A stretch of 37,180 nucleotides of DNA from a virus. The number at the start of each line of letters is the position of its first letter. Position 1 is the first letter of the stretch. Made by a program: the position numbers and the translations under genes. The stretch is taken from positions 1 through 37,180 of the IMG/VR virus record IMGVR_UViG_3300030406_000158. One strand, given 5' to 3'. The notes beneath the pieces are model-generated. The model was not told the origin of the DNA. It made no database searches and saw nothing but the letters and a program-made list of their open reading frames with translations. This document shows positions 7,543 to 37,180 of the stretch, one piece after another.

Positions 7543-8221
7543 GAACGTTGAAGCCCTATACCCAAAGTTAGATCAAACTTATAGGTATGATAATTCTATA
7601 CCACCTAATGGTAAGACAGTACCTTGTGGGCCAACTGAGGAAAACGCCAAGTTTGAGATGGACTTTAAAATGACAGAAAGTCAGGCTAAAGATCTGTACA
7701 AGCATATGGCTAAAGCCTACAAAGCTGAGGCGGCTAAAAATTGGCCAGCTATGCCGAAACCTGTAGAGGTCTTTGATAGAGATGACGAAGGTAACTTTAT
7801 CGGTTCGGTGCAGTTAAGAGGACAATTTAAGGGCAAGATCACTGATCCACCGTTGATTGTGGACTCACACAACAAGAAGTTACCACCTGAGTTTAGGCTC
7901 ACAACCGGTAGCCTCGTAAACTTAGGAGTGAATCTAGTCCCTTACAACATGAGTACTTGTGGTGTATCGTTACGTATAAAAGCTGTGCAAGTAATTAAAC
8001 TTGTCGAGAAGAAACAACATTCTCCTTTTGCTATGGTTGACGACGGTTGGTCTTTAGAAGATGAAGACGACCCATCCACAGTATTTTTAAGTGCAGCAGA
8101 TACTGCTCCCGTTGAGGAAGACGAAGTACCTGCACCGAAAAAGGTCTCCAAGAAAGCAGAGGGCGCTGCTCCGCCACCTGATGAAGACCTTGCGTCTATT
8201 GTTGATGATTGGGACGATTGA
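7514..8221 (+). CDS. DUF2815-like single-stranded DNA-binding protein (235 aa)
   Basis: The strand-rich body (ENVEALYPKLDQTYRYDN early; FIGSVQLRGQFKGK and LGVNLVPYNMSTCGVSLRIK later) resembles DUF2815 and T7 gp2.5-like OB-fold proteins. The end is very acidic (LEDEDDPS..., then DEDLASIVDDWDD), with a closing aromatic-acidic tail. Such tails on phage and bacterial SSBs recruit polymerase and helicase and regulate DNA binding. The ATG at 7514 is chosen because AGGAGA at 7502-7507 lies 6 bases upstream; that site lies inside the previous gene. Role: coating ssDNA during phage replication and recombination. Confidence 0.82.
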   Translation: MAEANIHLIENVEALYPKLDQTYRYDNSIPPNGKTVPCGPTEENAKFEMDFKMTESQAKDLYKHMAKAYKAEAAKNWPAMPKPVEVFDRDDEGNFIGSVQLRGQFKGKITDPPLIVDSHNKKLPPEFRLTTGSLVNLGVNLVPYNMSTCGVSLRIKAVQVIKLVEKKQHSPFAMVDDGWSLEDEDDPSTVFLSAADTAPVEEDEVPAPKKVSKKAEGAAPPPDEDLASIVDDWDD

Positions 8222-8231
8222 CAATAGGCAC

Positions 8232-8273
8232 TACCGTGGTGGGGTTTTTATACTTCTCCACTCCACCACGGTA
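8232..8273 (+). promoter_or_regulatory. Strong hairpin upstream of the primase-helicase gene
   Basis: TACCGTGGTGG (8232-8242) and CCACCACGGTA (8263-8273) are perfect inverted repeats. One G-T and one more G-C pair extend the stem to 13 bp around a 16-base loop (8245-8260). It fills most of the 69-base gap between the SSB-like stop and the primase-helicase start, ending 7 bases before that gene's GGAG. The bases after the stem (TATTTTG) make only a weak T-run, so attenuation, mRNA end protection or processing is as likely as full termination. Confidence 0.6.
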
Positions 8274-8290
8274 TATTTTGGAGCAGCATT

Positions 8291-10990: not shown

Positions 10991-11192
10991 CGACCTGAAC
11001 CCTGATGGGCTTAGAGTTACGATAAACTGGGAAGCTATGGATATAGGTTCTTCGTTCTTTTTGCCGTGTATAAACACAGAAAAAGGCACAAAACAGCTAA
11101 AAAGTGTTGCAAAAATGAAAGCATGGGAGTTTGAAGTGCAAATTTGCATAGAAAACAAAAAATTAGGTTTACGTGTGTGGAGAACTATGTGA
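10965..11192 (+). CDS. Small protein closing the replication arm, unknown function (75 aa)
   Basis: Reads GLRVTINWEAMDIGSSFFLP then KSVAKMKAWEFEVQICIENK, a small beta-rich protein with a charged C-terminus. No family recognised. The ATG at 10965 has AAGGG 4 bases upstream. An ATG at 10980 is an alternative start and gives an 11-base overlap with the primase-helicase, while an in-frame TTG lies at 10953. It is the last + strand gene before the terminator. Confidence 0.65.
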   Translation: MNQKVMKLDDLNPDGLRVTINWEAMDIGSSFFLPCINTEKGTKQLKSVAKMKAWEFEVQICIENKKLGLRVWRTM

Positions 11193-11260
11193 TACACAAG
11201 ATATGACAACTCGATACTCGATGTTGTTCTCCATTAGAACTGCCCTACTATATGTAGAGT

Positions 11261-11298
11261 ACCCCTACTGTGAGCTGCTCCGGTAGGGGTTCTTTTTC
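11261..11298 (+). terminator. Rho-independent terminator at the convergence of the two arms
   Basis: ACCCCTAC (11261-11268) pairs perfectly with GTAGGGGT (11283-11290), and two further pairs (one G-T, one G-C) close a 10-base loop. TTCTTTTTC follows the stem on the + strand. It ends the + strand replication transcript. On the - strand no T-run follows the stem, so it would stop the late transcript weakly at best. The surrounding 11193-11296 is the only non-coding stretch of about 100 bases in the window. Confidence 0.85.
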
Positions 11299-14200
11299 AA
11301 AACAAGTTAAAGCCTTGATCAAACTCTTCTAAACTTCGCTCCATGAACGGAGTGTAAGTCATGCCGCCACGCATCTTACCAGTGGTTCTGCCAAAGGAAG
11401 CAGCAGATCGTCGTTTAGTATCATTTGTTATTCTAGATTTAAACGCGCCCTCTGGTAACGATTCATTAAATTGATCTATTAAACGGTCTACGTTATCCAC
11501 TTCTTCAAAATCGCCCTCTCTCCTAGCCATGTTCCGTCTACGTAACAGCTTAGTGCGTCTATTATTTATGGCTTCTTGTCTGCGACGATTGTTTTTATTA
11601 AACTCCAAAGCTTGTATATAAGATTGGGGTGCAAATCCTAAACCCTGCATGACTACATTGTAAGGATTGATCTCTTCTGTAATTGGATCGCCTCTACGTG
11701 TGGTAGCCCCTTCAGTAGCAAAACGCTCCGCTTTAAACACGTTTCTTGCCGACGCAGGAGATATTGTCTCAAACCCTCTTCTCATAGTGCTGAAATCTCC
11801 GTCTGAAAAGCCATTATAAATGTCAGGAATACCTCTATATATCACTTGATTGCCTACACCAACAACTGGACCACCAAATTGTTCTATAAATGTAAAGAGA
11901 GGACTTTGATCTTTTTCTATAAGAGGTTTTCGATAGAGAAGGCTATTCATAGATATACGATTAGCTATGTCTGTGCCTAAAAGTTCGTTCGCTAGTCCAC
12001 CATAAACACCTTCACCTACTAATTTACGTGTAGCTGATTCGAAGTCATCTTCATCATCATCTGCAAACATGTTGTACAGCACTCCGAGAATACCCATTAA
12101 TGGCATACCACCAAGACCTGCCATGAGTCCTGTCATTACCATAAAATTTGCCAAGCCCTTTTGTGCCGCTCTACGCTCTTCAGGATTCATGTTTTTCATA
12201 GAATCTCTTGCTAGCCGGTACATCATATAATATTTACTCACCGCAAAGCGTTTAAATAAGAATATAACGTTACCAAAACCACCCTGTGCAAAAGTAGGAC
12301 GACCTGCAGCGGCTGTTCCACCTAAAGTAAATTCGGTGTCGTCTATGGCCTCTTGTGCCAGCCTGTCTGCAAAGTCAACGTCCAAAGTTTTGCCATCCTG
12401 TATCGCTTTTCTTGCGGATGCAAGGTATGCTGCAATGAACGTGGCCTCTCTATTAAATCGTTCTGAGTGATGAAACATGAAACTCATAAACCTATTGTAC
12501 GTTTCAAGAGGTGCATCTCTACCGACTTCTAAGGCTTCTTGAGTGTATGATTGGTTAAATTGTCCTTGCGACGTGGCCTTTTCTATAGCCCTATCTAAAT
12601 ATAGCTCTTTAAAATTATCGGGTAAAGCATCTCCAAAATTAGCGGCTGATCTACCTACAACACCCATATTTATCTCTTGAGGTGTTAACGTACCATCTGC
12701 CCCCGGAACCATAGCTGTGCGTTTCGTAGGGGCTTTAGCAAATAATTTTACTGCATCACCGTATGCTCTTGTCACATTGCTGATACCATGTTTGCCTGAA
12801 AGCACAGGCATGGAAGACATACCAACATCAAAAAACGTAATAAACGCGGAAGAAAAGTTAAATCCCATAGTCCAGCTAAAACCAAAGCTGTTAAGTATTT
12901 GAGACCATCTTGGTACATTTGGGGACTGGGCAAACTTTGCTATTTGATTCATCTTCTCTGCAATATTAGCCGTTGAAGGGTCAGTAAGATAACTTTGTTT
13001 TGATCCTTCTTCTCTAGGTTCTGCTAACTTCTTTCTAAAACCCTCTAACTTAGCGGCGTACTGCATCTGTACTAGCTGTCTGTTTAAATCGCGTCCTTTT
13101 TCTCTTAACATTGTATACGTGTCAAATTCTATGCCACCCATACCCGTAGGTGTGGTATCTCCCAAAAAGCCCCGTCTGTCTGCACGGCGTCTAAAGTTTT
13201 GCATAAAAGACCGTTCAGGCATGGCATCTAATGCTAGATCTATTACCGCTTGCAATGCATCTTTGTAATCTTCTTCAGTAGAAAATTTATCTTTGCGTAG
13301 GTTCACTGCATCTATAACTTGCAGAACGAATCTAGGTGGAGGGCTTCTTTCTATATCCATAGGTCTAGAAGCTAAAGTTACCTCAAAGTCTGTAGCCCCC
13401 GCTTCAGTCGCCCTATCTCTAGCTTGTTCTGCTTTTCTGAGCGTAGGGTAATATTCTATATAACGCTCTCCTGCCGCGTTTTGAGGGTTTAGTAAATCTG
13501 GACCAGTGTACACTAGCCTGTAATTACCTTTACGTGTGAGCGGAAAGTAAGGACGTATGACACCTGATTCTTTTTGCAACAGTTCTGCTAATTTTTTCAT
13601 AGAGCTTACTCTTGCCTCACCATCAGGCAAGGTAGTTTCTAGCCTTAACTCCAATGCTTTTATCACATCGTTGTAAGTATCCTGAAAATAATTTCTTGTT
13701 TGCTGGTACAGCTTCTGACCCTGAGAGTCTAATTGATTGTACAGTTCAAGCATATCTGCGTGTTCTGCTGTTCTTTGGGGATCGTTTTTATAAGTGCTAA
13801 CGTCTACAGAGGGATCAACACGCAAAAAGGTGCTGCGAGGCACAAGATTATTCAATATTCTAGACTGTTCAGGGTTGGCTTTTTTCCAACCACGTAGCTC
13901 TGCAGCCAAAGAATTTAATAAATCTGTTTTGTTTCGAAGTGTGCCGCTCATTTCATTTATTATAATGTTTAGCTCAGGTGCAAATGGTATTCTAGTTTTT
14001 GCATAGTCAGATAAAATATTTGCAGGAGCGAAAGAGGTAGCTAGTCTTCTAACGCTAGGCACAAGCCTTTCGTTAAATACTATATCTGTAAGATCAACGG
14101 CTGCGTTTTGTGTTGTTTCTGGCACTGCGTTTACCACGCTACCTAGTAACTTAGCCGAACCTGATTTCGTTGCATTTATTAATGGCATTCTTGGAGCGTC

Positions 14201-24332: not shown

Positions 24333-24821
24333 TTATGTTATACTAACTGTTACCCCACCCACACCAGAAGTAGCAGATGCAGCGGTTCCAGTCAAAGAAT
24401 AGGCAGAGTCTGTGCTAACATTTCCAACCTGACCTTGACCTGTGAAAAATACTGGCTGCTCTACTTCTGCAGAAGCATCAAAGGTTATAACCTGACCTAC
24501 CTGCCCTGTAGCAGAGTTAAAAAACTCAATACTTACTGGCACTGTCACATTAGGATCTATGGTAATTCTAACTTCACCTGTGGATAGCATCCACATATCG
24601 CCCGGTTGTAGACCTGCTGCATAGGCTTCTACGTTATTAGCAAACTGTCGTATGCCACCACCTTCAGGTTTTAAATTTAACTCGTTAGCGGTTACTTTGC
24701 CCGGATTTGATAGCTGTTCTTGAAAAAGAGAAAAAGCCCTAACGACTTCACGCATATAGTTTGGATCATATTCTCTTGGTGGTACACCAAAGAAGTATCG
24801 TGGAAGTGGATTGTCTGCCAT
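24333..24821 (-). CDS. Tail-associated virion protein, unassigned (162 aa)
   Basis: The N-terminus FFGVPPREYDPNYMREVVRA then FSLFQEQLSNPGKV resembles small tail/fibre-associated proteins of marine podoviruses. The rest is strand-rich and Val/Ser/Gly-rich (VTVPVSIEFFNSATGQVGQV, TGTAASATSGVGGVTVS). There is no membrane segment. It overlaps the nozzle-like gene by 1 base (TAATG), so it is probably translated with it. An adaptor or fibre-attachment role is inference from position. Confidence 0.72.
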   Translation of the reverse strand: MADNPLPRYFFGVPPREYDPNYMREVVRAFSLFQEQLSNPGKVTANELNLKPEGGGIRQFANNVEAYAAGLQPGDMWMLSTGEVRITIDPNVTVPVSIEFFNSATGQVGQVITFDASAEVEQPVFFTGQGQVGNVSTDSAYSLTGTAASATSGVGGVTVSIT

Positions 24822-26743
24822 TATCTTTTACCATCAGGCCGAATATCTAATCTATTTAAACCTGTTCTCCATGTTGTACCCACTTGATCAGAGCTTATTT
24901 TTAAAGCTACGGCTCTACCTCGAACCCTAAGATCTACCTTTTCTGTATATTGTTCTACAGGCACGGAAGATGACTTTACAATATTTGCTGTGTCTGTGCT
25001 TACTTGTAAGCCCCCGTTGTAGTTAAAAGCATCGATAGTAAAGTCTGCTTGTGGTGCAGGATTTGTGCTTGTTCTGAAAGTTATGTCGGGTATTAGTTTC
25101 CTAACATAGCTAAATACTTCACCATCTCCCAGATCTATTGGAGCAGACTGTATAAACGATTCTAATGCAGCGGGTGTTGCGCCACTTTGGTCGTCTATAC
25201 CAAACTCATGAGAGTAAAGTTTACCGTCTGTACCTGCAGCTATTGGAAAGTCGTCTATACCCCTGTCAATCCACGCTGTTCGATTAAGAGTGCCGTAATA
25301 CCAAATATCCATTTCGTAGTTATAGACAACATATTTATCAATATTATCGCTGTTTAATGATGGGTAGAACCACCATATTTCTTGAAACCCAGAATTAACG
25401 CCAACAAATATTTTTGTAGCTTGATCATTGTTAATATCTGTTAGTATCTTCTCTTTTACAGTGCAGTTAAGCTGATTTACGTTACCTCTGTACACATAGA
25501 ACTGATCAACGCCCATCCAGTACACGCTATCTCCAATAGCTACAGCAGCGTTGGGGCTACGAATAGTTATGTTCTCAGACACCCTGTTGATACCAAAAGT
25601 ATAAGGTGGGCCGATAAACTGCATTGAGTGTAACGCTTGGTCTGTAAATACAAGTATCTCTTGTCTTGTCTCAACAGCTTGCACTATGGCTGTACCAGAA
25701 CCTATGCGAAGATCTCCTGCTGTATTCGTAGTGCTTGGTGTCCAGTCAGCAGGGTTTTCTTGATCTGAAAATCTAATAAGCAGAGGGTCTTGAGCGTTGG
25801 AGCCAATAGGATTGCATCCAAAAGCTATAACATGCCTATCGATGTCCGATACCATTACCTGTTTTGCGATTGTTGGTGTGTTGCTTGCGCCTGTGAGAGA
25901 GGATAAGTACACGCCTCTTTGCGCTGTTGTGCCAGAAGTATCCCAATAAAATACAGAACCGTCTCTTATACAGAAGACTAAATCTTCTCCAAAAGTATCA
26001 TGCTGCCAAAGTCTTAAATTTTCTGACAATACATTAATTGTAGCTCTTGAGTTCCAAGCACCTCTAGACCAAGTACCTGCGCCCCAACCGTTGCCAAATG
26101 TAGACGTATCTACACCTGTCTGCACTTGATAGGCTGCAACTGCAGAGGAACCACCTGTGTTAGTATCCCCTGACGTGGCAACAACTAAAGCTGCGCTGTC
26201 GTCTATAACTCCATTGTTATAGTATTGATTTACGTTTGTAGTAGCTGCTCTAGCATTTATCGTATATGTACTTGTCGTTGGAGCGGTTTGAATCTGATAC
26301 TCTTGATTCAGGACATCGGCTGTTATAGCCCCACCTAGACTAGCGGCTCCGCTAAAAGTAACAAAATCCCCTACCCTAGCTTCGTGATTTGTATCTGTTA
26401 CAGTTATAACACTGCTACCTTGACTAGCAGAAAATGTGACATCTCCTGCTGCAGTGGTGTTTCTGATAGGTGTAATATCGTAGTACACACCACCGTCTTC
26501 TATGTAGTATTTAAGATGCGTCCCCACACCAATAAGCCTGTCGGATTCTAATGTAAGCCAAGGCTTTAAAGCACGGGCAGAACCTATAAATTGGTTGTCA
26601 CCCTTTTTTGCCCAACCACCTATTTTCTCTGGGTAACCGACACGAAATCGTATTTTATCTCCGTCACTCCAACCGTTTTCGTTGGCATAATCAGGAAGTT
26701 CTGTGTTTATTCCGGGTCTAAATTCAAGTTTCTGTAAAACCAT
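24821..26743 (-). CDS. Tail nozzle/DNA-stabilisation-like protein (640 aa)
   Basis: Matches the general form of phage tail nozzle or packaged-DNA stabilisation proteins (P22 gp10/T7 gp12-like): an all-beta chain with repeated propeller-like strands. It begins KLEFRPGINTELPDYANENG then GYPEKIGGWAKKG, with later segments DPLLIRFSDQENPADWTPST, EILVFTDQALHSMQFIGPPY and FGINRVSENITIRSPNAA, which I associate with this family in marine podoviruses. An internal Ser/Thr-rich insertion (about residues 100-200) looks like an added beta domain. It would form the tail tip that holds DNA in. A weak binding site (AGGTG) precedes the ATG. Confidence 0.8.
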   Translation of the reverse strand: MVLQKLEFRPGINTELPDYANENGWSDGDKIRFRVGYPEKIGGWAKKGDNQFIGSARALKPWLTLESDRLIGVGTHLKYYIEDGGVYYDITPIRNTTAAGDVTFSASQGSSVITVTDTNHEARVGDFVTFSGAASLGGAITADVLNQEYQIQTAPTTSTYTINARAATTNVNQYYNNGVIDDSAALVVATSGDTNTGGSSAVAAYQVQTGVDTSTFGNGWGAGTWSRGAWNSRATINVLSENLRLWQHDTFGEDLVFCIRDGSVFYWDTSGTTAQRGVYLSSLTGASNTPTIAKQVMVSDIDRHVIAFGCNPIGSNAQDPLLIRFSDQENPADWTPSTTNTAGDLRIGSGTAIVQAVETRQEILVFTDQALHSMQFIGPPYTFGINRVSENITIRSPNAAVAIGDSVYWMGVDQFYVYRGNVNQLNCTVKEKILTDINNDQATKIFVGVNSGFQEIWWFYPSLNSDNIDKYVVYNYEMDIWYYGTLNRTAWIDRGIDDFPIAAGTDGKLYSHEFGIDDQSGATPAALESFIQSAPIDLGDGEVFSYVRKLIPDITFRTSTNPAPQADFTIDAFNYNGGLQVSTDTANIVKSSSVPVEQYTEKVDLRVRGRAVALKISSDQVGTTWRTGLNRLDIRPDGKR

Positions 26744-26750: not shown

Positions 26751-27485
26751 CTAGTTTATTGTTAGTGTATAAGTACCTGCTGTACTATAAGTGACTGAAC
26801 TACTACCTGCTGGGGTTATTACTACGCGACCATCTCCGCCTTTGCCTCCACTATAATTAAAAGGAGTGCCTACGCCACCTGCCCCAACAACTATTGTAAT
26901 CGTTGTTCCGGGCAAAAGAGTAACGGTCCCAGAGCCTGTAGATGATGCACCTCCACCTGAACCTGCTCCACCACTGCTGTCAAGAAAACCGGGTGTATCA
27001 CCACCTGCACCGCCTCCACCTGCGCCAGAGCTAGGCGCATCACCATAAGTTGTAAATGATCCGCCTGAATTAGCTCCTCTACCATTAGGAAAACCTGTCC
27101 CACCTGCACCAACACTAGACGAAGCGCCTACTCGAGAAGAATGATCGTATGGAGAGACATTCCCATTTAAACCACCCAGTCCTCCAGCCTGAGATACGGT
27201 TGAAAACCCAGAGCCAGAGATAGAGGATGTGCCTCCACTTGCTGCTCTACCAGATCCATAACCGTTTTCTCGGCCCCATCCTCCTGCGCCACCGCCACCT
27301 AAAATGGTGTAGGTAAAAGTCGTAACATTCGACGTACCTCGAAAATCACTTATAGAGATAGGATTTCCTAGAGAAGGCACACCACTAGCAGCAGAATAAT
27401 ACTCTCTCAAACTTGCGGGGTTAGAACCACCAAATTCTCCCTGTATCTGACCTATACTTAGCGGGCCTGTGGTAGGTAAAGCCAT
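26751..27485 (-). CDS. Glycine-rich tail fibre/adhesin-like protein (244 aa)
   Basis: Residues 1-50 (GPLSIGQIQGEFGGSNPASL then SAASGVPSLGNPISISDFRG) are a conserved N-terminal phage fibre attachment domain. Residues about 60-215 are dominated by Gly and Ser (LGGGGAGGWGRENGYGSGR, SSGAGGGGAGGDTPG, VGAGGVGTPF), like the polyglycine type II helix bundle of receptor-binding adhesins such as Salmonella phage S16 gp38. The C-terminus closes with beta strands. It probably contacts the host surface. It shares 1 base with the fibre gene stop (TAATG). Confidence 0.8.
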   Translation of the reverse strand: MALPTTGPLSIGQIQGEFGGSNPASLREYYSAASGVPSLGNPISISDFRGTSNVTTFTYTILGGGGAGGWGRENGYGSGRAASGGTSSISGSGFSTVSQAGGLGGLNGNVSPYDHSSRVGASSSVGAGGTGFPNGRGANSGGSFTTYGDAPSSGAGGGGAGGDTPGFLDSSGGAGSGGGASSTGSGTVTLLPGTTITIVVGAGGVGTPFNYSGGKGGDGRVVITPAGSSSVTYSTAGTYTLTIN

Positions 27486-28222
27486 TATGCACTTCCAAAC
27501 GCTGTTACATCACCCTCAGCTACTGTTGCTCCTGTAGATGTTATCTTAAACCTATTGGTTCCACTGTATGCAAATTTTAACTCGCTTCCTGACTCGGTAA
27601 TAGTCCAATTACCCAAAGATATTGTATTTGCTTTAACTTCACCGCTAGCCCCATAAACAATAGCCTTTGAAGCAACAACGGTATTTGCTTGTGCGCCATC
27701 TAGTAAGTTTAAATCAGCGGCTTCTAGAGTAGTGGTTATGCCATCAAGCACATTAAGTTCAGCAGCAGTTGATGTTACGAGAACTCCGTTCTGTTTAAGC
27801 TGACCTAATTCAGAACTAAGTGACAGGTTTACAACATTATTATTTCCGTCTGCATATATAATAGCAAAAGAACCCGTAGCTACGTTTGCTGTAGTTGCAC
27901 CAGAACCCTGAGAGAATGTAACTGTTTTGGTTGCATCATTTTTTACATAATAAACTTTCTGTGCGTCTGCAGGAAGTATGGTGATAGTATGAGCCGCTGC
28001 TAAAGTGCCGCTACAAAGAAGAACTTTGTTTTGTCCGTCTGATGTAGCACCATTGCTTGTTGTAAGATTGCTGGATGTTCCTACAAGACTTAAAGAAACA
28101 ACACCATTGATAGCTCGATCAATTATGTCACTGTTCGTATTTACAGTGATACCCCAGCTTCCAGCTTGCTCACCACTGGCAGGTTTTTCTATACCTGTGT
28201 TTGTTGTAAATGTACTGGGCAT
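27485..28222 (-). CDS. Tail fibre protein (245 aa)
   Basis: The N-terminus STFTTNTGIEKPASGEQAGS then WGITVNTNSDIIDRAINGV is a common fibre attachment domain. The shaft contains two copies of the AAELNVLDGI/AADLNLLDGA motif widely seen in phage fibres, and a beta-rich knob follows to the C-terminus (ISLGNWTITESGSELKFAYS). AGGAG lies 7 bases before the ATG. It probably forms a trimeric fibre that presents the neighbouring Gly-rich adhesin. Confidence 0.83.
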   Translation of the reverse strand: MPSTFTTNTGIEKPASGEQAGSWGITVNTNSDIIDRAINGVVSLSLVGTSSNLTTSNGATSDGQNKVLLCSGTLAAAHTITILPADAQKVYYVKNDATKTVTFSQGSGATTANVATGSFAIIYADGNNNVVNLSLSSELGQLKQNGVLVTSTAAELNVLDGITTTLEAADLNLLDGAQANTVVASKAIVYGASGEVKANTISLGNWTITESGSELKFAYSGTNRFKITSTGATVAEGDVTAFGSA

Positions 28223-28231: not shown

Positions 28232-29218
28232 CTATGCTGCTACGTCTAAATCTGTCCATACAAGTTCTGGTTCTTCAGTTAAATCAACCTCAGTATACAC
28301 ATCATCCACTGGAACGTCTATAACCAAGGCTGAGTATGGGTCTACAGGCACTCCTATTAAGTCTACTGGTGTATAATGTCTAGTTGTGCCGACCACACCA
28401 AGGCCAGAGACGCCAGTTACTTGTACTGAAGCGATACCTACTATTGATGCACTTCCTACGCCACCAGTAGCGCCTACGCCTGTAACATCTACACTTGAAA
28501 CTGGATTGACTGAAGAAGTAGCACCCGTTGCGCTTACGCCTGTGACTGCTGTATTTGCGTTTGCTGCTACAACGATAGACCCGACATTAGCGCTACCCTG
28601 CAGTCCTGTTGCAGGTATACTGGCTGCGCCAACTATAGTTACGTCATTCGTAGAACTGTTGGCTGCTATGCCTGTCACAGACACGTCTACAGCTATGCTT
28701 GCAGTGGCTGCTCCTACAGAGGCCGTAGCACTCACACCTGTGACATCAATCTCAGTATCTGCAAGTATGACTGGAGAGCCTACAGAAACAGTAGCCTCAA
28801 GACCCGTTGCAGGGACGTTTGCCAAGCCTTCGACAGTGACAGAACCAGAAGTTGTATTAGATGATACGCCTGTTACGGAAACAATCGTCTGGTTAGCTGT
28901 TGTGACTGAGCCTATGCCTGTAGTTGCTTCGAGACCCGATACTGATGCTTGATTAGGTAGGCTTGCTATTGCCGAGCCTACAGAGCCAGTGGCTGCAACG
29001 CCTGTGGCACTAGTATTACCAATGCCTGTAACGGTAAGAGTTCCAACTCCACCTGTAGAGCCAAGACCTGTCTGTGGTGTATCTACAGCACCTGTTACCG
29101 TAGTAGCGGCTGTAGAGGCTGTCGCGCTTAACCCAGTAACAGAGACAGTAACCGGAACGACTACTCCTGCCTGATCATCAGCTATCGGAGCCGATGCTAC
29201 TGGGTGAAAGCCAAACAT
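28232..29218 (-). CDS. Protein built of twelve 22-residue repeats, fibre-region (328 aa)
   Basis: Residues 1-24 (MFGFHPVASAPIADDQAGVV...) are unique. Residues 25-284 are twelve repeats of the type xxVTGVSATxSVGxAxVxxxA, all 22 long except one of 20. Residues 285-328 are an acidic tail (PVDDVYTEVDLTEEPELVW). The low Cys/Trp content, high Val/Thr/Gly/Ala and strict period suggest an elongated beta structure such as a solenoid or trimeric shaft. No family is named. It lies among tail fibre genes, so a shaft or adhesin role is likely. The start has AGGAAC upstream. Confidence 0.8.
   Translation of the reverse strand: MFGFHPVASAPIADDQAGVVVPVTVSVTGLSATASTAATTVTGAVDTPQTGLGSTGGVGTLTVTGIGNTSATGVAATGSVGSAIASLPNQASVSGLEATTGIGSVTTANQTIVSVTGVSSNTTSGSVTVEGLANVPATGLEATVSVGSPVILADTEIDVTGVSATASVGAATASIAVDVSVTGIAANSSTNDVTIVGAASIPATGLQGSANVGSIVVAANANTAVTGVSATGATSSVNPVSSVDVTGVGATGGVGSASIVGIASVQVTGVSGLGVVGTTRHYTPVDLIGVPVDPYSALVIDVPVDDVYTEVDLTEEPELVWTDLDVAA
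28367..29146 (-). repeat. 66-bp (22-codon) tandem coding repeats, x12
   Basis: The units are residues 25-46, 47-68, 69-90 and so on to 265-284 of the enclosing gene. Every third unit (3, 6, 9) opens with TSATGV, VPATGL or IPATGL instead of VTG, and the units before them (2, 5, 8, 11) all end in G(I/L/A)(G/A)(N/S). There is therefore a 66-residue super-period. Codons differ between copies, so this is an old protein-level repeat rather than a fresh DNA duplication. Confidence 0.8.
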
Positions 29219-29228: not shown

Positions 29229-29543
29229 CTACGACTCTCTTGCGGCTACCCAGTCAGAAACCATCTTTTTGACTTCATCGGTAGTCATTTCTACGTCATC
29301 TTTGCTAGGATCATCACTCGGCTTTGTAAAAGCATTATCGCTATGTATTGCTAAAACTCTAGTCTCTAGCTCTGTCGCTGTAAGCTCTGTAACTGTATCT
29401 GGAATATAGTATTCTCTATCAGCCTCATCTGGAGACCAACCGATTCTGGTGTGATCTGATTTACCCCAGTATCCACCATCTTCTATCCACTCAGGAGTTC
29501 TCATACCCCCTGCAGTCATATGCATTTTGTATTCAAGTATCAT
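29229..29543 (-). CDS. Small acidic protein paired with the coiled-coil gene (104 aa)
   Basis: Contains GGMRTPEWIEDGGYWGKSDH and DREYYIPDTVTELTATELET and is acidic at the C-terminus. It starts in an 11-base overlap with the preceding gene (ATGATACTTGA), with GGAG upstream in the end of that gene. No family recognised. Phage tail-assembly chaperones often occur as an overlapping pair of genes, but this pair sits among fibre genes and no slippery heptamer is evident, so I do not call it that. Possibly a fibre assembly helper. Confidence 0.7.
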   Translation of the reverse strand: MILEYKMHMTAGGMRTPEWIEDGGYWGKSDHTRIGWSPDEADREYYIPDTVTELTATELETRVLAIHSDNAFTKPSDDPSKDDVEMTTDEVKKMVSDWVAARES

Positions 29544-30378
29544 CTTTTTTCTCCGTTTTTTCTAGTCTTAACATATATTCGGGGTTCAGAAAATCTGATT
29601 TACCAAATATTCTTTCGGCAGTTTTATCTGCATTCTTATAATACTTATCCGCCATTAGATCCATAAACTCCTCTAAATCATTAGAATGAGGTAAATCATG
29701 GTTTTTTATCTTCTGTGCAGTGTGCTGTATGTACCCAGACACTTCAGTCATAGCTACCTGTGGGTGAACACCATATTGCTGCATGTATTCTATCGTTGAG
29801 GTAGAAACCCTGCCGCCATCCATCAGGTTTCGGTACATAAGCTCAAAGCCACGGCGCACATGATGGCGCTTCTCTTCTCTCTCGAAAGACTCTTCATCCC
29901 ACTCGTCTATATCCCACTTCTCTTTTATGTTCTCGTAGCTATCAATAAGCACTGCTATATCTTTGATAGAGCCGTTTATCTTATGCTCCATCATTGTCAG
30001 GCCATGACGAGCTGCTTTAAGCTTTGCTTCAGAAACAATGTCATCCTCTTCTTCGAGGTCTAATATTTCTACACGTTTCTCAGCATGTGATACTTGTGCT
30101 TCTGCAAGTGCCATCTTACGCTTTTCTACTTCTGCGGTAATCTGTCGAAGCATACGCATAGGAGAGTGACCGTTGAGCATAGTAAGTGTCATCATAGACA
30201 GGGTTGTCGCTGAGTTATTACGATCAAAAGCTCTGGTTGCCTGATCTATCTCTGGTAACTTCTCTGCCACCCGCGCAGCAGCTACCTGATTGATATTTTC
30301 AGATGACTCTATAGGCAACGAAAATGTTATTGGTTTCGTTACTACATTAGTCTTCTTTTTAGTTTTAGTCTTTCCCAT
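29533..30378 (-). CDS. Charged coiled-coil protein in the fibre cluster (281 aa)
   Basis: Basic N-terminus (MGKTKTKKKTNVVTKPITFS), then long helices: TRAFDRNNSATTLSMMTLTM, LRQITAEVEKRKMALAEAQV and IVSEAKLKAARHGLTMMEHK. An acidic stretch (EKWDIDEWDEESFEREEKRH) and further helices follow. There is no membrane segment. AAGGAG lies 7 bases before the ATG, so unlike the gene before it this one is independently initiated. Helical content in an otherwise beta-rich tail fibre region suggests an assembly chaperone or scaffold, by context only. Confidence 0.72.
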   Translation of the reverse strand: MGKTKTKKKTNVVTKPITFSLPIESSENINQVAAARVAEKLPEIDQATRAFDRNNSATTLSMMTLTMLNGHSPMRMLRQITAEVEKRKMALAEAQVSHAEKRVEILDLEEEDDIVSEAKLKAARHGLTMMEHKINGSIKDIAVLIDSYENIKEKWDIDEWDEESFEREEKRHHVRRGFELMYRNLMDGGRVSTSTIEYMQQYGVHPQVAMTEVSGYIQHTAQKIKNHDLPHSNDLEEFMDLMADKYYKNADKTAERIFGKSDFLNPEYMLRLEKTEKKDDT

Positions 30379-30389: not shown

Positions 30390-31490
30390 TTAAGACGCAT
30401 TACCCGAACTTGCTCCCATTTTCACTCTGCTTTCCAGTATATCTCCAAAATCAGTAGCATTGGCGGGAGTTTGAATTGTAAATTTATCCATATCAACTCC
30501 AGAAATATGAATACCTATTGTGCTGTTACTAGTACAAGCTTTAGCGTTGGATGCTGTTAATAAATCACCAAAGTCAGTTCCATTGCCTGTGGTTTGAATA
30601 GTTATATATTCCATGTTTTTATAACTCTGTGCGGATGAACCTCCACAAAAAACACCTCTGGTCGCATCTGAACAAGCTGTATTTCGGCTAACAGCAAGCA
30701 ACAGATCGCCAAAGTCGGTTCCATTGCCGGGAGTTGCTATCGTAAAATAGTCTATTGTATTGGTGGTACTGCCTCCAATGCCACCCCCAAAAACAGCTCT
30801 TGTTGCGTCTGCTACTCCACCTCCATGCATACCCTGACCTACCCCAGTAAGATCACCAAAGTCTGTGGCGTTACCGGTATTAGCTACTGTTACATAATCA
30901 ACTATATTACCATATCCAGAAGTGCTATAACCACCTGCATTGAGAAGTCTTGTTCCATTACTAGCAGCGGCGACTACATTTCTACCTACCGTTAGGTCGC
31001 CAAAATCTGTACAGTTGCCGGGAGTTGATGGAGTAACGTAGTCCATAACGGGGCTTCTGTTTGGAGCAGAGCTAGAATATCCACCAGAAAAAATAGCTCT
31101 AGTAGAAGAACCACCTGCACTATGATGCGTTCTATCTACCGTCATGTCGCCAAAGTTTGCGGAGTTACCCCCACTTCCGCTTATATCAAAGTAAAGGAGG
31201 TCATTATAGCTAGAACCTGTACCTGATACAATACCTCTATCACCGCCCCAAGCAATTCCTGCGGGAGCAGTATATACACCAAGTTCTTTAAACCCACCGT
31301 CCATATACCTGTATAGTTTATCGTTACCAGTGTCCCACCAGTAATCTCCATTGTTAGGGGAAGATGGCTCTGAACCACTAGCAGTATATCCTTGTTCTGC
31401 TAAAATACCGCCCACTTTAAGTTTGTTAGGTAAGTCAACAGCATCTGTAGGAAGATCGCCAAATATTTCGTCTACTTTAATTGTACTCAT
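30390..31490 (-). CDS. Kelch-like repeat fibre protein, copy 6 (type A N-terminus, 366 aa)
   Basis: Residues 1-75 form a fibre-like N-terminal domain (MSTIKVDEIFGDLPTDAVD, then YWWDTGNDKLYRYMDGGFKE). Six units of about 48 residues follow, each reading like TRAVFGGG...NTIDYFTIATPGNGTDFGDL. The FGGG/SGG turn and the spaced tyrosines resemble Kelch blades, so a six-bladed beta-propeller is the natural reading. It ends SSGNAS with a TAA, 11 bases before the next ATG. It is the last copy of the array. A receptor- or glycan-binding role is inference. Confidence 0.85.
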   Translation of the reverse strand: MSTIKVDEIFGDLPTDAVDLPNKLKVGGILAEQGYTASGSEPSSPNNGDYWWDTGNDKLYRYMDGGFKELGVYTAPAGIAWGGDRGIVSGTGSSYNDLLYFDISGSGGNSANFGDMTVDRTHHSAGGSSTRAIFSGGYSSSAPNRSPVMDYVTPSTPGNCTDFGDLTVGRNVVAAASNGTRLLNAGGYSTSGYGNIVDYVTVANTGNATDFGDLTGVGQGMHGGGVADATRAVFGGGIGGSTTNTIDYFTIATPGNGTDFGDLLLAVSRNTACSDATRGVFCGGSSAQSYKNMEYITIQTTGNGTDFGDLLTASNAKACTSNSTIGIHISGVDMDKFTIQTPANATDFGDILESRVKMGASSGNAS

Positions 31491-32653
31491 GAAGCTGATC
31501 CTGATGTCGCGTCAATATATTGGGATATACTTTGCATGTCTCCATGATCAGTAGCATTTGCGGGAGTTTGGATAGTCACTCTTTCTATTACATTTATAAG
31601 GTATGGGCTACTAGAAGTGGCATAACCTCCTATAAAAGTACCATAAGTACCATCTGATGCCGAGCCATGTCTACATCGAGCAGTTAGGTCTCCAAAATCA
31701 GTTCCATTACCTGCGGTTTGAGTGGTAAAATAAGTTATATGGTTTAAAAAAGGTGCGCTACTTATCCCACCCGAAGTCAGACCTCTTGTAGTATCAGCAC
31801 AAGAAGCATGTTCAAAAGAGTGTGCAGTGATTTGAGTTCCAAAGTTAGTTGCATTTCCCGGAGTAGCAATAGACACATATTCTATATCGTTCTTAGATGT
31901 GTCTGTACCTTGAACGTACACAGCGCGGGTAGCATCGTTAAAAGCAGAACCTCCCGCATCGGCGGCGGTGAGATCTCCAAAGTCGGTAGCGTTACCTGTG
32001 TTAGCTATTGTAATATAATCAATAATATTACCACTTCCACCACCATGTAGATTCCCTCCCATAAACAAACCGTAGGTATCGTTGCCAGCAGATGCAAGTG
32101 AATCCCTGCTACTCGCACCAGTGCTACTAAAAGGGTATGTGGTTAAATCACCAAAGTCAGTAGCATTTCCTATTGTTGCAGTAGTTATGTAGTCTATTGT
32201 GTTGTACGCAGTTGAGCTAACTTTACCTCCTGCAAATACAGCTCTAGTTCCGTTACTCACTCCTGCTCCATCTTCCCTAGCTTGAGTTAGATCTCCAAAA
32301 TCAGCAGCGTTACTTGAGCTTGATATATCAAAGTAGTCTATTTCACGATCATATGGAGAAGGGTAGTTAAAGCGTCCTATATAAACAGCCCTAGATCCAC
32401 CCCAAGTAAAAGCAGGGGCAGTTGTACCCAACCAGTCCTTCCACTCTCCATTAATATAAACTTTATATACACTGTTGGTTGTGTCTAACCACGCATCTCC
32501 ATTCGATGGACTAGAAGGTTCATTTGCACCTTCTGTATGCTTATGAGGACTTAGACCACTGTCAGATCCTGCTATGTTAAAACCATTGGTAAAGTCAGGC
32601 GCACCTGTCCCTGCCCTGTCTGTGAGTGTCTCTATGCCCGCAACATCACTCAT
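31487..32653 (-). CDS. Kelch-like repeat fibre protein, copy 5 (type B N-terminus, 388 aa)
   Basis: The N-terminal domain differs from that of copy 6: MSDVAGIETLTDRAGTGAP, then HTEGANEPSSPSNGDAWLDT and VYKVYINGEWKDWLG. Six repeat units follow (for example TRAVFAGGKVSSTAYNTIDY then GNATDFGDLT); one reads NFGTQI instead of FGDL and another DHGDM. The last residues are SGSAS, encoded by the same bases that form the AGGAT binding site of the next gene, which it overlaps by ATGA. It pairs with copy 6 in the same order (B then A) as copies 3 and 4. Confidence 0.85.
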   Translation of the reverse strand: MSDVAGIETLTDRAGTGAPDFTNGFNIAGSDSGLSPHKHTEGANEPSSPSNGDAWLDTTNSVYKVYINGEWKDWLGTTAPAFTWGGSRAVYIGRFNYPSPYDREIDYFDISSSSNAADFGDLTQAREDGAGVSNGTRAVFAGGKVSSTAYNTIDYITTATIGNATDFGDLTTYPFSSTGASSRDSLASAGNDTYGLFMGGNLHGGGSGNIIDYITIANTGNATDFGDLTAADAGGSAFNDATRAVYVQGTDTSKNDIEYVSIATPGNATNFGTQITAHSFEHASCADTTRGLTSGGISSAPFLNHITYFTTQTAGNGTDFGDLTARCRHGSASDGTYGTFIGGYATSSSPYLINVIERVTIQTPANATDHGDMQSISQYIDATSGSAS

Positions 32654-33768
32654 GATGGGTTTCCTGAAAATGCGGTGTGATTATGTGTCGTTTCTAAAAG
32701 ATCTCCAAGATCTGTAGCATTACCCAAAGTTTGGATAGTTACATACTCTATGATATTTAACTTACCACTTCCATTACCTGCGGTATCACCACCACAAAAA
32801 GCACCTCTAGTTTCATTAGGACATGCATGAACTCTCATTCTGTTTCCAGAAAGGTCTCCAAAGTCTGCTGCGTTGGCCAAAGTTTGTATGGTAACGTAAT
32901 CTATAGTCTTTATTTTTGTAGTAGCTCCATCAGGAGTACCGCCCCCAAATAGACCCCTCGTAGCATCTGCACATGCTCCCGACTGTCCTCTTGTTGTAGT
33001 TCCATTTCCAAAATCTGAAGCATTTCCTGCACTGGCAGTGCTATAATAATCTATTCGATTGGTATATGTGATAGACCCTTCGATACCACCGTGGACAATA
33101 GCTCTTGTTAAGTCACTGCAAGAAGCACTAAGCCACATTGTACCATTAAGATCTCCCCAATCAGCGGCGTTACCAGTAGTTGCAATGGTTACATATTGTA
33201 TTTCATTTATTGGGCCGGGATACCCACCATTTACAAACGCTTTTGTACCATCAGAACATGCCGTGGAATAAAAAACGCCAGTGTTTAAATCGCCAAAATC
33301 AACAGCATTTCCGGGGGTAGCTATGGTAATGTAGTCTATAACATTTGTACCACCTTGGCCACCCATAGTTAAACCTCTTGCAGAACTGCTAGCTCCTTGC
33401 GTAAGCTCTCTTGTTACTGTTAGATCACCAAAGTCTTGAGAGTTGCCCGCTGTAGTAATGTCAAAATATTGAATGACATTTGATCTTGATATAGTAGGTG
33501 TTTCACCTCCTGATACAATACCTCGATCACCACTCCAAGCATTACCAGAAGGAGCAGCTATAGTTAGTTCTTTAAACTCACCATTAATATATCGATAAAG
33601 TTTGTCATTACTGCTGTCCCACCAGAAGTCACCTGTTGAAGGGCTACTAGGTTCAGTACCAGAGGCAGTATATCCTTGAACAATACTATCTCCACCTATC
33701 TTGAAGTTATTGGGCAGGTTAATTGCATTGCTTCTATTCTTTATTGTGTCGACTTTTATTGTACTCAT
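32650..33768 (-). CDS. Kelch-like repeat fibre protein, copy 4 (type A N-terminus, 372 aa)
   Basis: The start at 33768 (MSTIKVDTIKNRSNAINLPN) is chosen over an upstream in-frame start at 33795, because it matches copy 6, overlaps the previous stop by ATGA, and has AGGAG 7 bases before it. The attachment-like segment is FWWDSSNDKLYRYINGEFKE. Six repeat units follow; one reads DWGDL and one FGNGT in place of FGDLT. It ends AFSGNPS. Most closely related to copy 6 by its N-terminus. Confidence 0.85.
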   Translation of the reverse strand: MSTIKVDTIKNRSNAINLPNNFKIGGDSIVQGYTASGTEPSSPSTGDFWWDSSNDKLYRYINGEFKELTIAAPSGNAWSGDRGIVSGGETPTISRSNVIQYFDITTAGNSQDFGDLTVTRELTQGASSSARGLTMGGQGGTNVIDYITIATPGNAVDFGDLNTGVFYSTACSDGTKAFVNGGYPGPINEIQYVTIATTGNAADWGDLNGTMWLSASCSDLTRAIVHGGIEGSITYTNRIDYYSTASAGNASDFGNGTTTRGQSGACADATRGLFGGGTPDGATTKIKTIDYVTIQTLANAADFGDLSGNRMRVHACPNETRGAFCGGDTAGNGSGKLNIIEYVTIQTLGNATDLGDLLETTHNHTAFSGNPS

Positions 33769-34898
33769 GATGCTGCTCCTGAAACTCCCGCACAATAATC
33801 TTGATTGCTTGTTAAGTCACCAAAATCTGTGGCGTTTCCGGGAGAGCTAATTGTAACGTATTGTATGACGTTCTGATCTCCAGTACCATCGTTAGACCTA
33901 CCTCCTATACAGACTCCACGGGAATTTGATGCGTTCGATGCTTGTCCATTATAAGCTATAGTTTTGATAAGATCACCAAAATCTGAAGAATTACCTGCTG
34001 TTGCTATAGTTAATTTGTCTATATTAGTATTCCAAGTACTGCTTGCTCTATTACCACCCATCAAAAGACCTGTAGTATTATCACTACATACTCCATTCCC
34101 ACCTCCATAGTGATTTTCAGTTAGGTCACCAATGTCTGTAGCATTTCCTAGTGTTCCCATAGTAATTTTATCCATTATGTTAGTGCCAGCCGTAGTATAG
34201 CCTCCCAAAAATATACCATGTGTAAGATCGTTAGTAGAACTAAGAAAATATCTTCCAGCAGTTAAATCACCAAAGTCGGAAGCATTTCCCGCTGTTTGTA
34301 TTGTTACATACTGTATTACATTATTACTAGAGGAATCACCTCCTCCAACTATGGCTTTGGTGGCATCAGAAACAGACGCTGCGTAAGAACGAGTTTGATC
34401 TAGATCTCCAAAATCAACAGTATTTCCCAATGTTGCAAAGGCCCAGTACTGAATAGTATTTTGATTGAGTCCACCCAATAACAAACCTCTACTACCATCA
34501 CCTGCAGCAGTTCCTCTCCGTACACCAGAAAGAAGATCGCCAAAGTCTGTTGCATTGCCAGATGTAACAGAAAGATCAAAATAATCCATCTCTGCTCTAC
34601 CTGCGATATCGCCTTCTCCACCTAGACGCATACCTCTAGTACCCCACCAAGAGGCACTAACAGCAGAAGTGCCTAGCCAATCTTTCCAAGCGTTGTCCAT
34701 GTAAACTTTATAAACGGTGTTCTCGGTATCCCACCAAGTGTCTCCGTTGCTAGGACTGCTTGGCTCTGTGTCTCCCTCTGTGTGCGTGAAAGGATTTATG
34801 CCACTGTCAGATCCTGCAAAGTTTACGCCGTTTGTAAAATTAGGAGCGCCTGTACCCGCTCTGTCTGTAATCGTTATTATTCTGTCTACTTCACTCAT
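33765..34898 (-). CDS. Kelch-like repeat fibre protein, copy 3 (type B N-terminus, 377 aa)
   Basis: The start at 34898 (MSEVDRIITITDRAGTGAPN) follows AGGAG by 7 bases; the longer in-frame start at 34931 would read through that site. The N-terminal domain matches copy 5 (HTEGDTEPSSPSNGDTWWDT, then VYKVYMDNAWKDWLG). Six repeat units follow (GSRGLLLGGLNQNTIQYWAF, ATKAIVGGGDSSSNNVIQYV and so on). It ends AGVSGAAS, whose codons include the ribosome binding site of copy 4. Confidence 0.85.
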   Translation of the reverse strand: MSEVDRIITITDRAGTGAPNFTNGVNFAGSDSGINPFTHTEGDTEPSSPSNGDTWWDTENTVYKVYMDNAWKDWLGTSAVSASWWGTRGMRLGGEGDIAGRAEMDYFDLSVTSGNATDFGDLLSGVRRGTAAGDGSRGLLLGGLNQNTIQYWAFATLGNTVDFGDLDQTRSYAASVSDATKAIVGGGDSSSNNVIQYVTIQTAGNASDFGDLTAGRYFLSSTNDLTHGIFLGGYTTAGTNIMDKITMGTLGNATDIGDLTENHYGGGNGVCSDNTTGLLMGGNRASSTWNTNIDKLTIATAGNSSDFGDLIKTIAYNGQASNASNSRGVCIGGRSNDGTGDQNVIQYVTISSPGNATDFGDLTSNQDYCAGVSGAAS

Positions 34899-34900
34899 TG

Positions 34901-36052
34901 CTAGTCTCCTGACATTGAGGTATGTTCCCACCTCTCCAAGGTCATATCACCATAATCTGTTGCATTTCCGGGAGTTTGAACAGTCACATAATCTATAACA
35001 TTAATTCTAGCAGCAGTTTCTTCGTAACCACCTGAAATTAATGCTCTGGTTGTATCGGCGCAACAAGCTGCGCGAACTATAGCGTTACTCGCATCACCAA
35101 AATCAGTTCCGTTCCCTGCGGTTTGGATCGTTATGTATTCTATATTATTGTAACGATTGCTACCATCCCAACCGCCTACAAATATACCTCTTGTAGCATC
35201 ATTTGTACCGGCCATCTGGCCTCTTGCCGAAGATAGGTCTCCGAAGTCAGTGGCGTTTCCGGGTGAGGCTGTAGTTATATATTCTATTTTATTTTCATAA
35301 CCGCTGTTGTTAGTCTCTCCTACAGCACAAACGGATCTTGTAGCATCGCTGCAGGAAGCATTATAGCTACTATTGACAGTCATATCACCAAAGTCTGTAG
35401 AATTACCTGTTGTGGCAATAACAGTTTGCATTATAGTATTATGGTAAGTAGGAGAAACGCCGTACCTTGTTCCAGCCCATGTTAAAGCCCTAGTGCCATC
35501 AGAACATGACGTGTGATTATAAAGACCAAAAATTAAATTACCAAAATCGGTAGCATTTCCTGTGGTTCCTATAGTTATGTAATCTATTGTGTCGAAAGTA
35601 GCGGTGGGCAAGCCCCCAAGAAATAAACCTCTAGTTTTATTGCTACCAGATGTTATACGATCCCTTGCTATTGTCAAATCACCAAAATCAACAGCGTTTC
35701 CTGTTGTTTGAATAGCGCTGTAATCAATGGCATTGCTTCGCGCTCCACTGACGTTATAATCTCCCCCTCCAAAAATAGCTCTACTACCACTCCAAGGGTT
35801 ACCAGATGCTGCAGAAGCGTTTAGCTCAATCTCTTTAAACTCACCGTTTATATAAACAAAAACTTTATCGTTACCACTGTCCCACCACAAAGCCCCATTT
35901 TTAGGGTTACTAGGCTCTGTAGCAGAAGATGTATATTCGTGTGTGTTTAGTGTGCTTATGGCGGCGTTACTGCCTACAGTTGGTTGAACAGGCAAATTTG
36001 GTTTACCTGATCCTGCTGCGTTGGTTATGTTATCTACTTTTAATTCTGTCAT
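34901..36052 (-). CDS. Kelch-like repeat fibre protein, copy 2 (type C N-terminus, 383 aa)
   Basis: A third N-terminal type: MTELKVDNITNAAGSGKPNL, then STLNTHEYTSSATEPSNPKN and DKVFVYINGEFKEIEL. Six repeat units follow, among them TRGLFLGGLPTATFDTIDYI and TRGIFVGGWDGSNRYNNIEY. Its final residues are MSGD and the stop is TAG, two bases before the next ATG; the usual SGAAS end is lost, but the AGGAG-to-ATG spacing of 7 is kept. It starts by ATGA overlap with copy 1 behind AGGAG. Confidence 0.85.
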   Translation of the reverse strand: MTELKVDNITNAAGSGKPNLPVQPTVGSNAAISTLNTHEYTSSATEPSNPKNGALWWDSGNDKVFVYINGEFKEIELNASAASGNPWSGSRAIFGGGDYNVSGARSNAIDYSAIQTTGNAVDFGDLTIARDRITSGSNKTRGLFLGGLPTATFDTIDYITIGTTGNATDFGNLIFGLYNHTSCSDGTRALTWAGTRYGVSPTYHNTIMQTVIATTGNSTDFGDMTVNSSYNASCSDATRSVCAVGETNNSGYENKIEYITTASPGNATDFGDLSSARGQMAGTNDATRGIFVGGWDGSNRYNNIEYITIQTAGNGTDFGDASNAIVRAACCADTTRALISGGYEETAARINVIDYVTVQTPGNATDYGDMTLERWEHTSMSGD

Positions 36053-37180
36053 GATGCTGCTCCTGATAAAGCTCCACCTTGATACCTACCAGTTGATAGA
36101 TCTCCAAAATCGGTGGCATTTCCTGTTGTAGCTATAGTAACTTTTTGTATTACATTTGAACTTCCGCTACTACCGCTACCACCAAAGAAAACACCTATAG
36201 TTGCATTATTGGTTCCGCTCACGTTGTAGGCTCCAGCAAGTAGATCGCCAAAATCTGTAGCATTTCCAGTGCTGGAAATAGTTATATAGTCTATTACATT
36301 ACTAAAACTTCCAGTGTAACCCCCTGCAAATAAACCTCTTCCTTCTGCACTAGAACAACCTGCATTACCGGCCCATCTTGCTACCGTTAAGTCTCCAAAG
36401 TCTGTAGCATTACCCGGGGTGTCCATTGTCCAATAATCTAAAACATTACTATTACTGCTAGGTAATTGTCCACCACCCCTAACTCCACGAGTTGCATCTC
36501 CAACAAACACCGGGATCTCTATTGTTTCAGTAAGATCACCAAAATCAGTACCGTTGCCGGGGGTGGCAATAGTAACATACTCTATAACATTACTTTTAGA
36601 AGAAACGTTGTAAGCACCGCCACCATATGTACATCTGCTTCCATTAGAATTTGCGCCTATAAATCTCATATTGGCTGTGGTGTCGCCAAAATCTGTAGCA
36701 TTAGCAGCGGTTGAGGTTGTAACCTTATCAATAGTATTTGTAAAATCAACGCCATCACCAAGATAATTGTCTTGTTCACCTGCAATCATAAGACCTGTTG
36801 ATCCATCTGACGCACCATCAAGAGATTTTCTCTTTGTGGTTAAATTTCCAAAATCTGTAGCGTTACCTGCGGAAGTTATGTTTATCTGCTCTATTTGATC
36901 GTCTGGGTTATTAGAACTAGTACGTCCACCAAAAAACAAACCTCTATCCCCATACCAAGCACTAGATGGATAAGCAGTATTTAAAGTTATCTCTTTGAAC
37001 TCGCCGTTTATGTAGACCTTTACTTTACTGTTGGCGCTGTCCCACCAGATAGCTCCGTTTTTAGGGCTACTTGGTTCTGTTCCTGACGATGTGTAAGAAT
37101 GAGTGTTTAAAGTGCTTAAAGCAGATCCACCAGAATGCGTGGGGCTGACAGGAAAGTTAGGCTTACCTGTCCCCGCTAAA
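36049..37180 (-). CDS. Kelch-like repeat fibre protein, copy 1 (type C N-terminus, partial at right edge)
   Basis: The frame is open from 36049 to the window edge. The ATG at 36939 is internal; upstream codons continue with GTGKPNFPVSPTHSGG, TYTSSGTEPSSPKNGAIWWD-like residues (36940-37179) and VKVYINGEFKEITLNTA, matching copy 2. By that comparison only about eleven N-terminal residues are missing. Six repeat units are present (DRGLFFGGRTSSNNPDD, TRGVRGGGQLPSSNSNVLDY and others). It ends ALSGAAS overlapping the next ATG. Confidence 0.82.
   Translation of the reverse strand, partial: LAGTGKPNFPVSPTHSGGSALSTLNTHSYTSSGTEPSSPKNGAIWWDSANSKVKVYINGEFKEITLNTAYPSSAWYGDRGLFFGGRTSSNNPDDQIEQINITSAGNATDFGNLTTKRKSLDGASDGSTGLMIAGEQDNYLGDGVDFTNTIDKVTTSTAANATDFGDTTANMRFIGANSNGSRCTYGGGAYNVSSKSNVIEYVTIATPGNGTDFGDLTETIEIPVFVGDATRGVRGGGQLPSSNSNVLDYWTMDTPGNATDFGDLTVARWAGNAGCSSAEGRGLFAGGYTGSFSNVIDYITISSTGNATDFGDLLAGAYNVSGTNNATIGVFFGGSGSSGSSNVIQKVTIATTGNATDFGDLSTGRYQGGALSGAAS

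Follow-up and report, generated by a model that had tools for sequence, protein, structure and literature searches.

What does a virus do with six tandem paralogous genes, each encoding a protein of six Kelch-like units? The question is raised by one end of an environmental marine phage sequence, IMG/VR record IMGVR_UViG_3300030406_000158, whose whole 37,180 bases form the window analysed here. Six open reading frames (ORFs) run head to tail on its minus strand from 37179 down to 30390 (the bank; Table 1). Our analysis makes it probable that the bank encodes receptor-binding tips of tail fibres, in which stems locked to their positions carry propeller heads that are exchanged horizontally. A landmark pattern search found six copies of a GNATDFGD-type motif in each of the six proteins, 36 in total, in agreement with the original prediction of six consecutive paralogues with six Kelch-like units each. 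A hidden Markov model (HMM) of the unit concurred with these counts except in gene 6, where a weak first unit fell below the threshold; its landmark is present. The other bank proteins share 37-47% pairwise identity with the gene 2 protein. The closest relatives of the bank, L009 and L010, are 92% identical at the protein level at gene 2. Their arrays have exactly six members with other genes on both sides, and the bank size of six is thus not an artefact of the cut window edge.

Predicted fold and unit number

The AlphaFold2 model of the gene 2 protein (81 sequences; mean predicted local distance difference test score, pLDDT, of 92) is a closed ring of six four-stranded blades, in which blade 1 takes three strands from the N-terminal side and is closed by the protein's final strand (378-382). 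A closed six-bladed propeller is thus predicted for the single chain, one of the two forms, propeller or closed ring, that the original prediction had proposed as a fixed fold. The best structural matches were Keap1, KLHL12 and the designed SAKe (Foldseek E-values of about 1e-18 to 1e-16), and the model superposed on Kelch propellers with Z scores of 38-40 and 1.9-2.2 Å over 273-287 residues. Like the Kelch domains of these three proteins, it has six four-stranded blades, a GG doublet after strand 2 (G in 1725/2078 and 1951/2080 unit positions) and a terminal strand closing the first blade; it differs from them in having DFGD where Kelch has a Trp segment and in sharing only 10-14% sequence identity. 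The Pfam Kelch models (PF01344 and PF13964) gave no match to the six window proteins at an E-value of 1, and in the 81 homologues Kelch_1 was found in three and Kelch_6 in one (best E-value 0.0056). Because a structural match to Kelch propellers is combined with this lack of Pfam Kelch matches, the bank proteins are predicted to have a Kelch-type fold with a repeat sequence of their own. A sequence search of solved structures found no relative of the bank proteins. The Pfam matches of the six proteins were only short ones, such as OxoDH_E1alpha_N on the repeat motif, and were rejected as spurious.

Ring closure predicts unit counts in multiples of six, and such counts prevailed when the single-unit HMM was run on the ORFs of all fetched relatives, collapsed at 90% identity. 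Among complete distinct ORFs of a first set, 167/203 had six units, 20 had twelve and one had eighteen; in an enlarged locus set these numbers were 256, 26 and 1 (together 283/322). The constant unit number claimed in the original prediction was thereby upheld after computational alignment, with counts of 6, 12 or 18. The off-count ORFs that were inspected mostly had one weak unit under the threshold, seen as a gap of about 50 residues, or were adjacent pieces of members split by frameshifts or sequencing errors (L024, L027 and L077). ORFs of 12 or 18 units occur in L025, L053, L076 and others, apparently two or three heads in tandem; judging from the counts, these would form two or three rings. 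AlphaFold2 applied to a 12-unit relative with a shallow alignment (21 sequences) gave a pLDDT of 38.

Diversity is distributed unevenly over the unit. The DA and BC loops, with mean column entropies of 3.00 and 2.75 bits over 2,125 aligned units, stand out against the CD loop (1.32) and strand 4 (0.82). The length of the CD loop was constant in 1634/1647 cases; the BC loop, which corresponds to the stretch between GG and (I/M)xY already recognized as variable in the original prediction, ranged from 1 to 22 residues. In Kelch propellers the BC and DA loops share one face, which is the ligand face of Keap1. As the two most variable loops lie on the same side, this face of the head is likely the binding surface.

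Replacement of heads at the stem/head border

The first ~70 residues of each bank protein lie outside the propeller and form a stem. The stems of 86 proteins with such an N-terminus fall into three classes, with consensus sequences like MteiKVDtitN.AGtGkPN (A), MSef...kItDrAGTGAPnFt.G (B) and MSTlKVdtI.N.gsavdfPn (C). A stem tree requires 4 class changes, as compared with 40.8 when labels are shuffled; this tree has few columns and many weak forks and, since the classes were assigned by stem motif patterns, its result is a matter of consistency and not an independent test. In the head tree of the same 86 proteins, stem class requires 40 changes as compared with 41.0 for shuffled labels. This match indicates that heads and stems have separate histories.

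We compared identity and synonymous divergence (dS) position by position in four pairs of loci (window/L009, window/L186, L030/L154 and L034/L032). In syntenic banks, stems are 73-97% identical at every position, whereas heads are either 85-95% or at most 54% identical. Between the window and L009, stem identity is 85-92% throughout the six places; the heads reach 93% at place 2 and 95% at place 5, as against 38-54% at places 1, 3, 4 and 6. Stem and head identities are, respectively, 92% and 47% for gene 1, 86% and 39% for gene 3, 87% and 38-39% for gene 4, and 87% and 54% for gene 6. The head of gene 4 is 66% identical to that of the seventh gene of L026. Between L030 and L154, all six stems are 88-97% identical and all six heads 39-52%. 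The 45-column profile was also counted as evidence for head replacement.

Synonymous sites tell the same story. Stem dS between the window and L009 is 0.21-0.53, against a background of 0.31-0.42 in three neighbouring genes, whereas head dS is 1.7-2.5 at places 1, 3, 4 and 6 but falls to 0.08-0.09 at places 2 and 5. As head dS is below stem dS in gene 2 (0.08 versus 0.39) and in gene 5 (0.09 versus 0.40), the similar heads at these two places have a different and younger history than the stems that carry them. A similar case is place 3 of L009 and L186, where heads 85% identical (dS 0.19) sit on stems 75% identical (dS 0.65). These values bear on the idea that head differences arose by fast point mutation under selection, with no exchange. 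Such a process would fit the finding that the variable loops are the most diverse positions; however, one and the same gene combines a stem dS of 0.2-0.5 with a head dS either far above or far below it, and heads regroup across stem classes. We regard this explanation as hardly credible and discarded it on the stem/head dS contrast.

The heads have been replaced with junctions at the stem/head border. DNA identity between the window and L009 drops at the stem end, ~215-240 bases into the gene, and recovers at the gene end; for genes 2 and 5 the change at this point is a rise. The islands of DNA identity (1-213, 1052-2520, 3398-3627 and 4513 onward of the reverse-complemented window) have their edges near gene junctions and stem ends. 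A diversity-generating retroelement would have a reverse transcriptase and a template repeat nearby; in a PHROGs scan of the window proteins, on a contig that lacks the stretch upstream of gene 1, we found no reverse transcriptase, and the exchange that we see is of whole heads. The window also encodes an exonuclease and a Gp2.5-like annealing protein that could serve head recombination. ATGA overlaps occur at four of the five gene junctions of the bank, and two bases lie between genes 2 and 3. Where a gene end reads TCAGGAGCAGCATCATGA (e.g. around 36049-36066, minus strand), conserved C-terminal Ser-Gly codons form AGGAG, the likely ribosome site of the next gene.

Stem classes and possible assembly

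The stem classes recur in a set order. The order A-B-C was found in 12 bounded arrays and 6 cut arrays, and the six-gene banks read either A-A-B-C-B-C (window, L009 and L186) or A-A-B-B-C-C (L030 and L154), with two of each class. Among 70 bounded arrays, a tandem of three is the commonest size (31), and six members were found in three, seven in one and nine in one. According to the original prediction, a six-gene bank is not known to have been described. We also found none in the open literature that was searched, but the bank is not unique, as six members are present in L009/L010, L030, L154 and L186, seven in L026 and nine in L146. The same prediction overlooked the stem/head architecture and the head swapping. 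Other arrangements were noticed as well. L146 carries, at 3299-13233, nine six-unit paralogues on one contig with other stem kinds (FNTDSxxLEYY-type segments). In L043, L050, L057, L060, L066, L069 and L071 the N-termini are different (fibronectin-like, 'MPNYSGVWxLxxQYQA' and 'PVxPAGPYxDGAAxGVW') and make up a second scheme, here too usually of three genes in fixed order. In L012 (4422-7226; also in L022), stem-A and stem-C members are separated by a fibre gene of another kind, which has an S74 endosialidase chaperone domain, together with a Phage_tail_APC/fibre assembly protein, so that two fibre types are interleaved in these loci.

Since A, B and C are kept in place and together, the three classes probably take three virion places or form one mixed oligomer; the bank comprises two complete sets. 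The short N-terminal stem would fix each protein to its own place in the tail apparatus, and the six-bladed Kelch-type head would grip the cell surface by its BC/DA face. Whole head cassettes are probably passed from phage to phage and from one stem class to another. The simplest mechanism would be recombination where stem and head join, with the conserved stem DNA on one side and the conserved junction of gene end and next stem on the other providing flanking homology. Such an exchange would change the specificity for the host surface. A place in the tail fibre is suggested by the gene directly upstream of the array in relatives, which belongs to PHROG_677 ('baseplate wedge tail fiber protein connector'; 9e-21 in L020, 9e-21 in L026, 3e-19 in L030 and 1e-7 in L010), and by the combination of a conserved attachment part with an exchangeable tip.

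How the three classes would be assembled is less clear. One possibility, which falls somewhat short of an even bet, is a putative homotrimer for each stem class with its own attachment, giving three (here six) separate fibre kinds, each for a different receptor. Homotrimers are the known form of a receptor-binding protein made of stem and propeller, as in phi11 Gp45, with six trimers per baseplate (PMC4901313), and they more easily explain unequal class numbers; yet by themselves they leave unexplained why the three classes are nearly always present together and in the same order. These last features are what a putative obligate A:B:C heterotrimer would account for, with three different propellers per fibre tip and, from a six-gene bank, either two fixed tips or as many as eight mixed ones. 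The triads with one of each class and the 2:2:2 composition of all six-gene banks fit this alternative, and there is a precedent in virophage DSLV2, where three consecutive tail genes with position-specific clades encode a 1:1:1 heterotrimer (PMC12724248). However, arrays with unequal class numbers exist, and the DSLV2 proteins resemble T4 gp37 and carry a collar domain; when the six bank proteins and 81 homologues were scanned with Pfam, no phage tail collar domain (PF07484) turned up. We entertain the heterotrimer only tentatively. Its extension, in which three obligatory stem classes each bring a different exchangeable propeller to mixed tips, and the 2A:2B:2C bank would be a combinatorial repertoire renewed by community-wide exchange of head cassettes ('assortable' host recognition), is doubtful.

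The bank proteins might instead decorate the virion, act as accessory adhesins binding mucus or particles, or be spares, with a single one of them incorporated into the virion. Jumbo phage CBB has the Kelch protein CBB_552 in its virion without a known role (PMC5259590). Nevertheless, the array lies directly behind the fibre connector gene in relatives, strong head exchange on conserved stems fits a change of host range, and the set may well be co-translated, to judge from its four ATGA overlaps; we consider this alternative improbable. Several points also weigh against tail-fibre tips with position-locked stems and exchanged heads, the explanation that we prefer. The window contig ends inside gene 1, and the upstream connector comes from relatives. 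In the gene 2 model confidence is low for the first ~40 stem residues, so that attachment is not visible in the structure. Exceptions to equal A:B:C numbers include A-C-B-B, A-B-C-B-C, A-A-B-C-B, A-C-A-B-B-B-C and C-B, and to these must be added the missing Pfam Kelch matches. Finally, the phage of the window is known from its genes alone, and we infer the virion presence and tail-fibre location of the bank proteins, their receptor or glycan binding and oligomeric state, the host range and the recombination enzyme.

Family, genomic context and known systems

According to PHROGs, the window encodes a DNA polymerase, a helicase, a primase, an endolysin, a DNA ejection protein and a 2007-residue DarB-like protein. 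In tblastn, the tail 'stabilization/needle head' protein matches its counterpart in Phage DSL-LC04 across 100% of the query at 40% identity, and shares 31-34% identity with those of Pelagibacter phages HTVC023P and HTVC027P, Roseobacter phage CRP-901 and Synechococcus phage MinM2. These matches indicate that the window derives from a short-tailed phage related to DSL-LC04, HTVC023P and CRP-901. In L030, a central siphovirus J-type tail fibre gene lies just upstream; the array may thus not be limited to a single kind of tailed phage. Close to the bank, the gene for a protein of VTGVSATxxVG-like repeats has a dS of only 0.056 to L010, as compared with 0.3-0.4 in other neighbours, and for this reason seems to have been recently exchanged too; similar repeat genes are gp68 in the same region of HTVC023P and another in DSL-LC04. 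The gene at 26751-27485 shares only 47% identity with its positional counterpart in L010, next to a gene that is 96% identical, and appears as another replaced gene near the bank.

Table 1. Coordinates of the bank genes and of other features of the window
Feature	Coordinates	Strand	Stem	Head	Remarks
Gene 1	36049..37179	-	class A, ~36991-37179	~36049-36990	5' end beyond contig edge, no start codon in window
Gene 2	34901..36052	-	class A, ~35831-36052	~34901-35830	protein used for structure model
Gene 3	33765..34898	-	class B, ~34680-34898	~33765-34679
Gene 4	32650..33768	-	class C, ~33568-33768	~32650-33567
Gene 5	31487..32653	-	class B, ~32435-32653	~31487-32434
Gene 6	30390..31490	-	class C, ~31284-31490	~30390-31283
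Downstream neighbour	29533..30378	-			conserved, PHROG_1409; dS 0.42 to L010, used as background
VTGVSATxxVG-like repeat gene	28232-29218	-
Gene next to replaced gene	27485-28222
Replaced gene near bank	26751-27485	-
Tail 'stabilization/needle head' protein	24821..26743	-
Gp2.5-like annealing protein	7499-8221
Exonuclease	3676-4347

At least 500 stretches of IMG/VR matched the family per scan. In contrast to this abundance, tblastn of window proteins against 50,697 phage records gave no match; with proteins of relatives as queries only Synechococcus phage S-SKS1 was found, weakly, and stem queries gave only weak matches, in Bacillus phage Troll, EBPR podovirus 2 and others. The end of the S-SKS1 record (L103, NC_020851) is partly unannotated, with many weak family units in several frames, and has the BFVD fragment M4QT40. 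Gene 5 matches PHROG_19111, of unknown function (profile E-value 7.6e-9), and the uncultured phage protein A0A6J7WZC1 matches in fold (E-value 3.9e-36, 34% identity). Both belong to the same repeat family as the bank; no array context is described for either. Judging from these scans, the family is large, but cultured phages hardly contain it and most of it has no name in databases. A genome scan (alignment A1) gave eight bacterial loci, several of which are perhaps phage contigs binned into metagenome-assembled genomes (MAGs); MAGs such as Porticoccaceae weakly hint at a gammaproteobacterial host. Family members were seen on bacterial contigs of Desulfobacter vibrioformis (L192) and Epulopiscium sp. 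(L188; 12, 12, 6 and 12 units). The repeat family may not be restricted to phages, or these loci may be prophages.

For uncultured phages, most of them aquatic, the bank makes tail-fibre modularity readable from sequence: a whole six-bladed head is what is exchanged, the end of the ~70-residue stem is the junction and three stem classes are the fixed part. Head cassettes could serve as candidate host-range markers in metagenomes, and their exchange would offer a modular route to changing which host surface a virus can grip. Two direct questions follow: do the three stem classes assemble jointly, and does head exchange change the host?

Phage Kelch propellers, tandem fibre paralogues, exchange of fibre modules and three-gene tails are each already known. 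No description of a large, nearly uncultured Kelch-head family combined with a three-class stem rule and fully decoupled heads and stems came up in the open literature, most subscription papers lying outside this scope, and Kelch heads, three stem classes and head swapping appear undescribed together. Propeller heads on stems are used for host recognition by phi11 Gp45 (a homotrimeric receptor-binding protein), PRD1 P2, PhiKZ gp131C and K1F endosialidase (PMC4901313); however, the propeller has five blades in phi11, a distorted five in PRD1 P2 and seven in PhiKZ gp131C, and none has the Kelch-like repeats of the bank. Moreover, systems of the phi11 Gp45 type consist of a single gene, as opposed to a bank of paralogues. 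Clustered Kelch-propeller proteins are present in jumbo phage vB_PcaM_CBB (CBB_550, CBB_552 and CBB_554, one of them in the virion; PMC5259590), but this is a jumbo myovirus for which no A/B/C stem scheme or head exchange is described. The DSLV2 virophage, whose heterotrimer is experimental (PMC12724248), resembles the bank in its three consecutive tail genes with position-specific clades, and differs in having no propellers and no described head exchange. The closest likeness in position is found in Pelagibacter phage HTVC023P, where gp59-gp62, annotated as hypothetical, are four tandem paralogous tail-fibre-like genes at the corresponding locus, upstream of the homologous tail protein. Their N-termini are similar to those of the bank, of IKVD type, and their heads are glycine-rich, without Kelch units. 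A tandem bank thus lies at the same locus in a cultured phage, with a different head.

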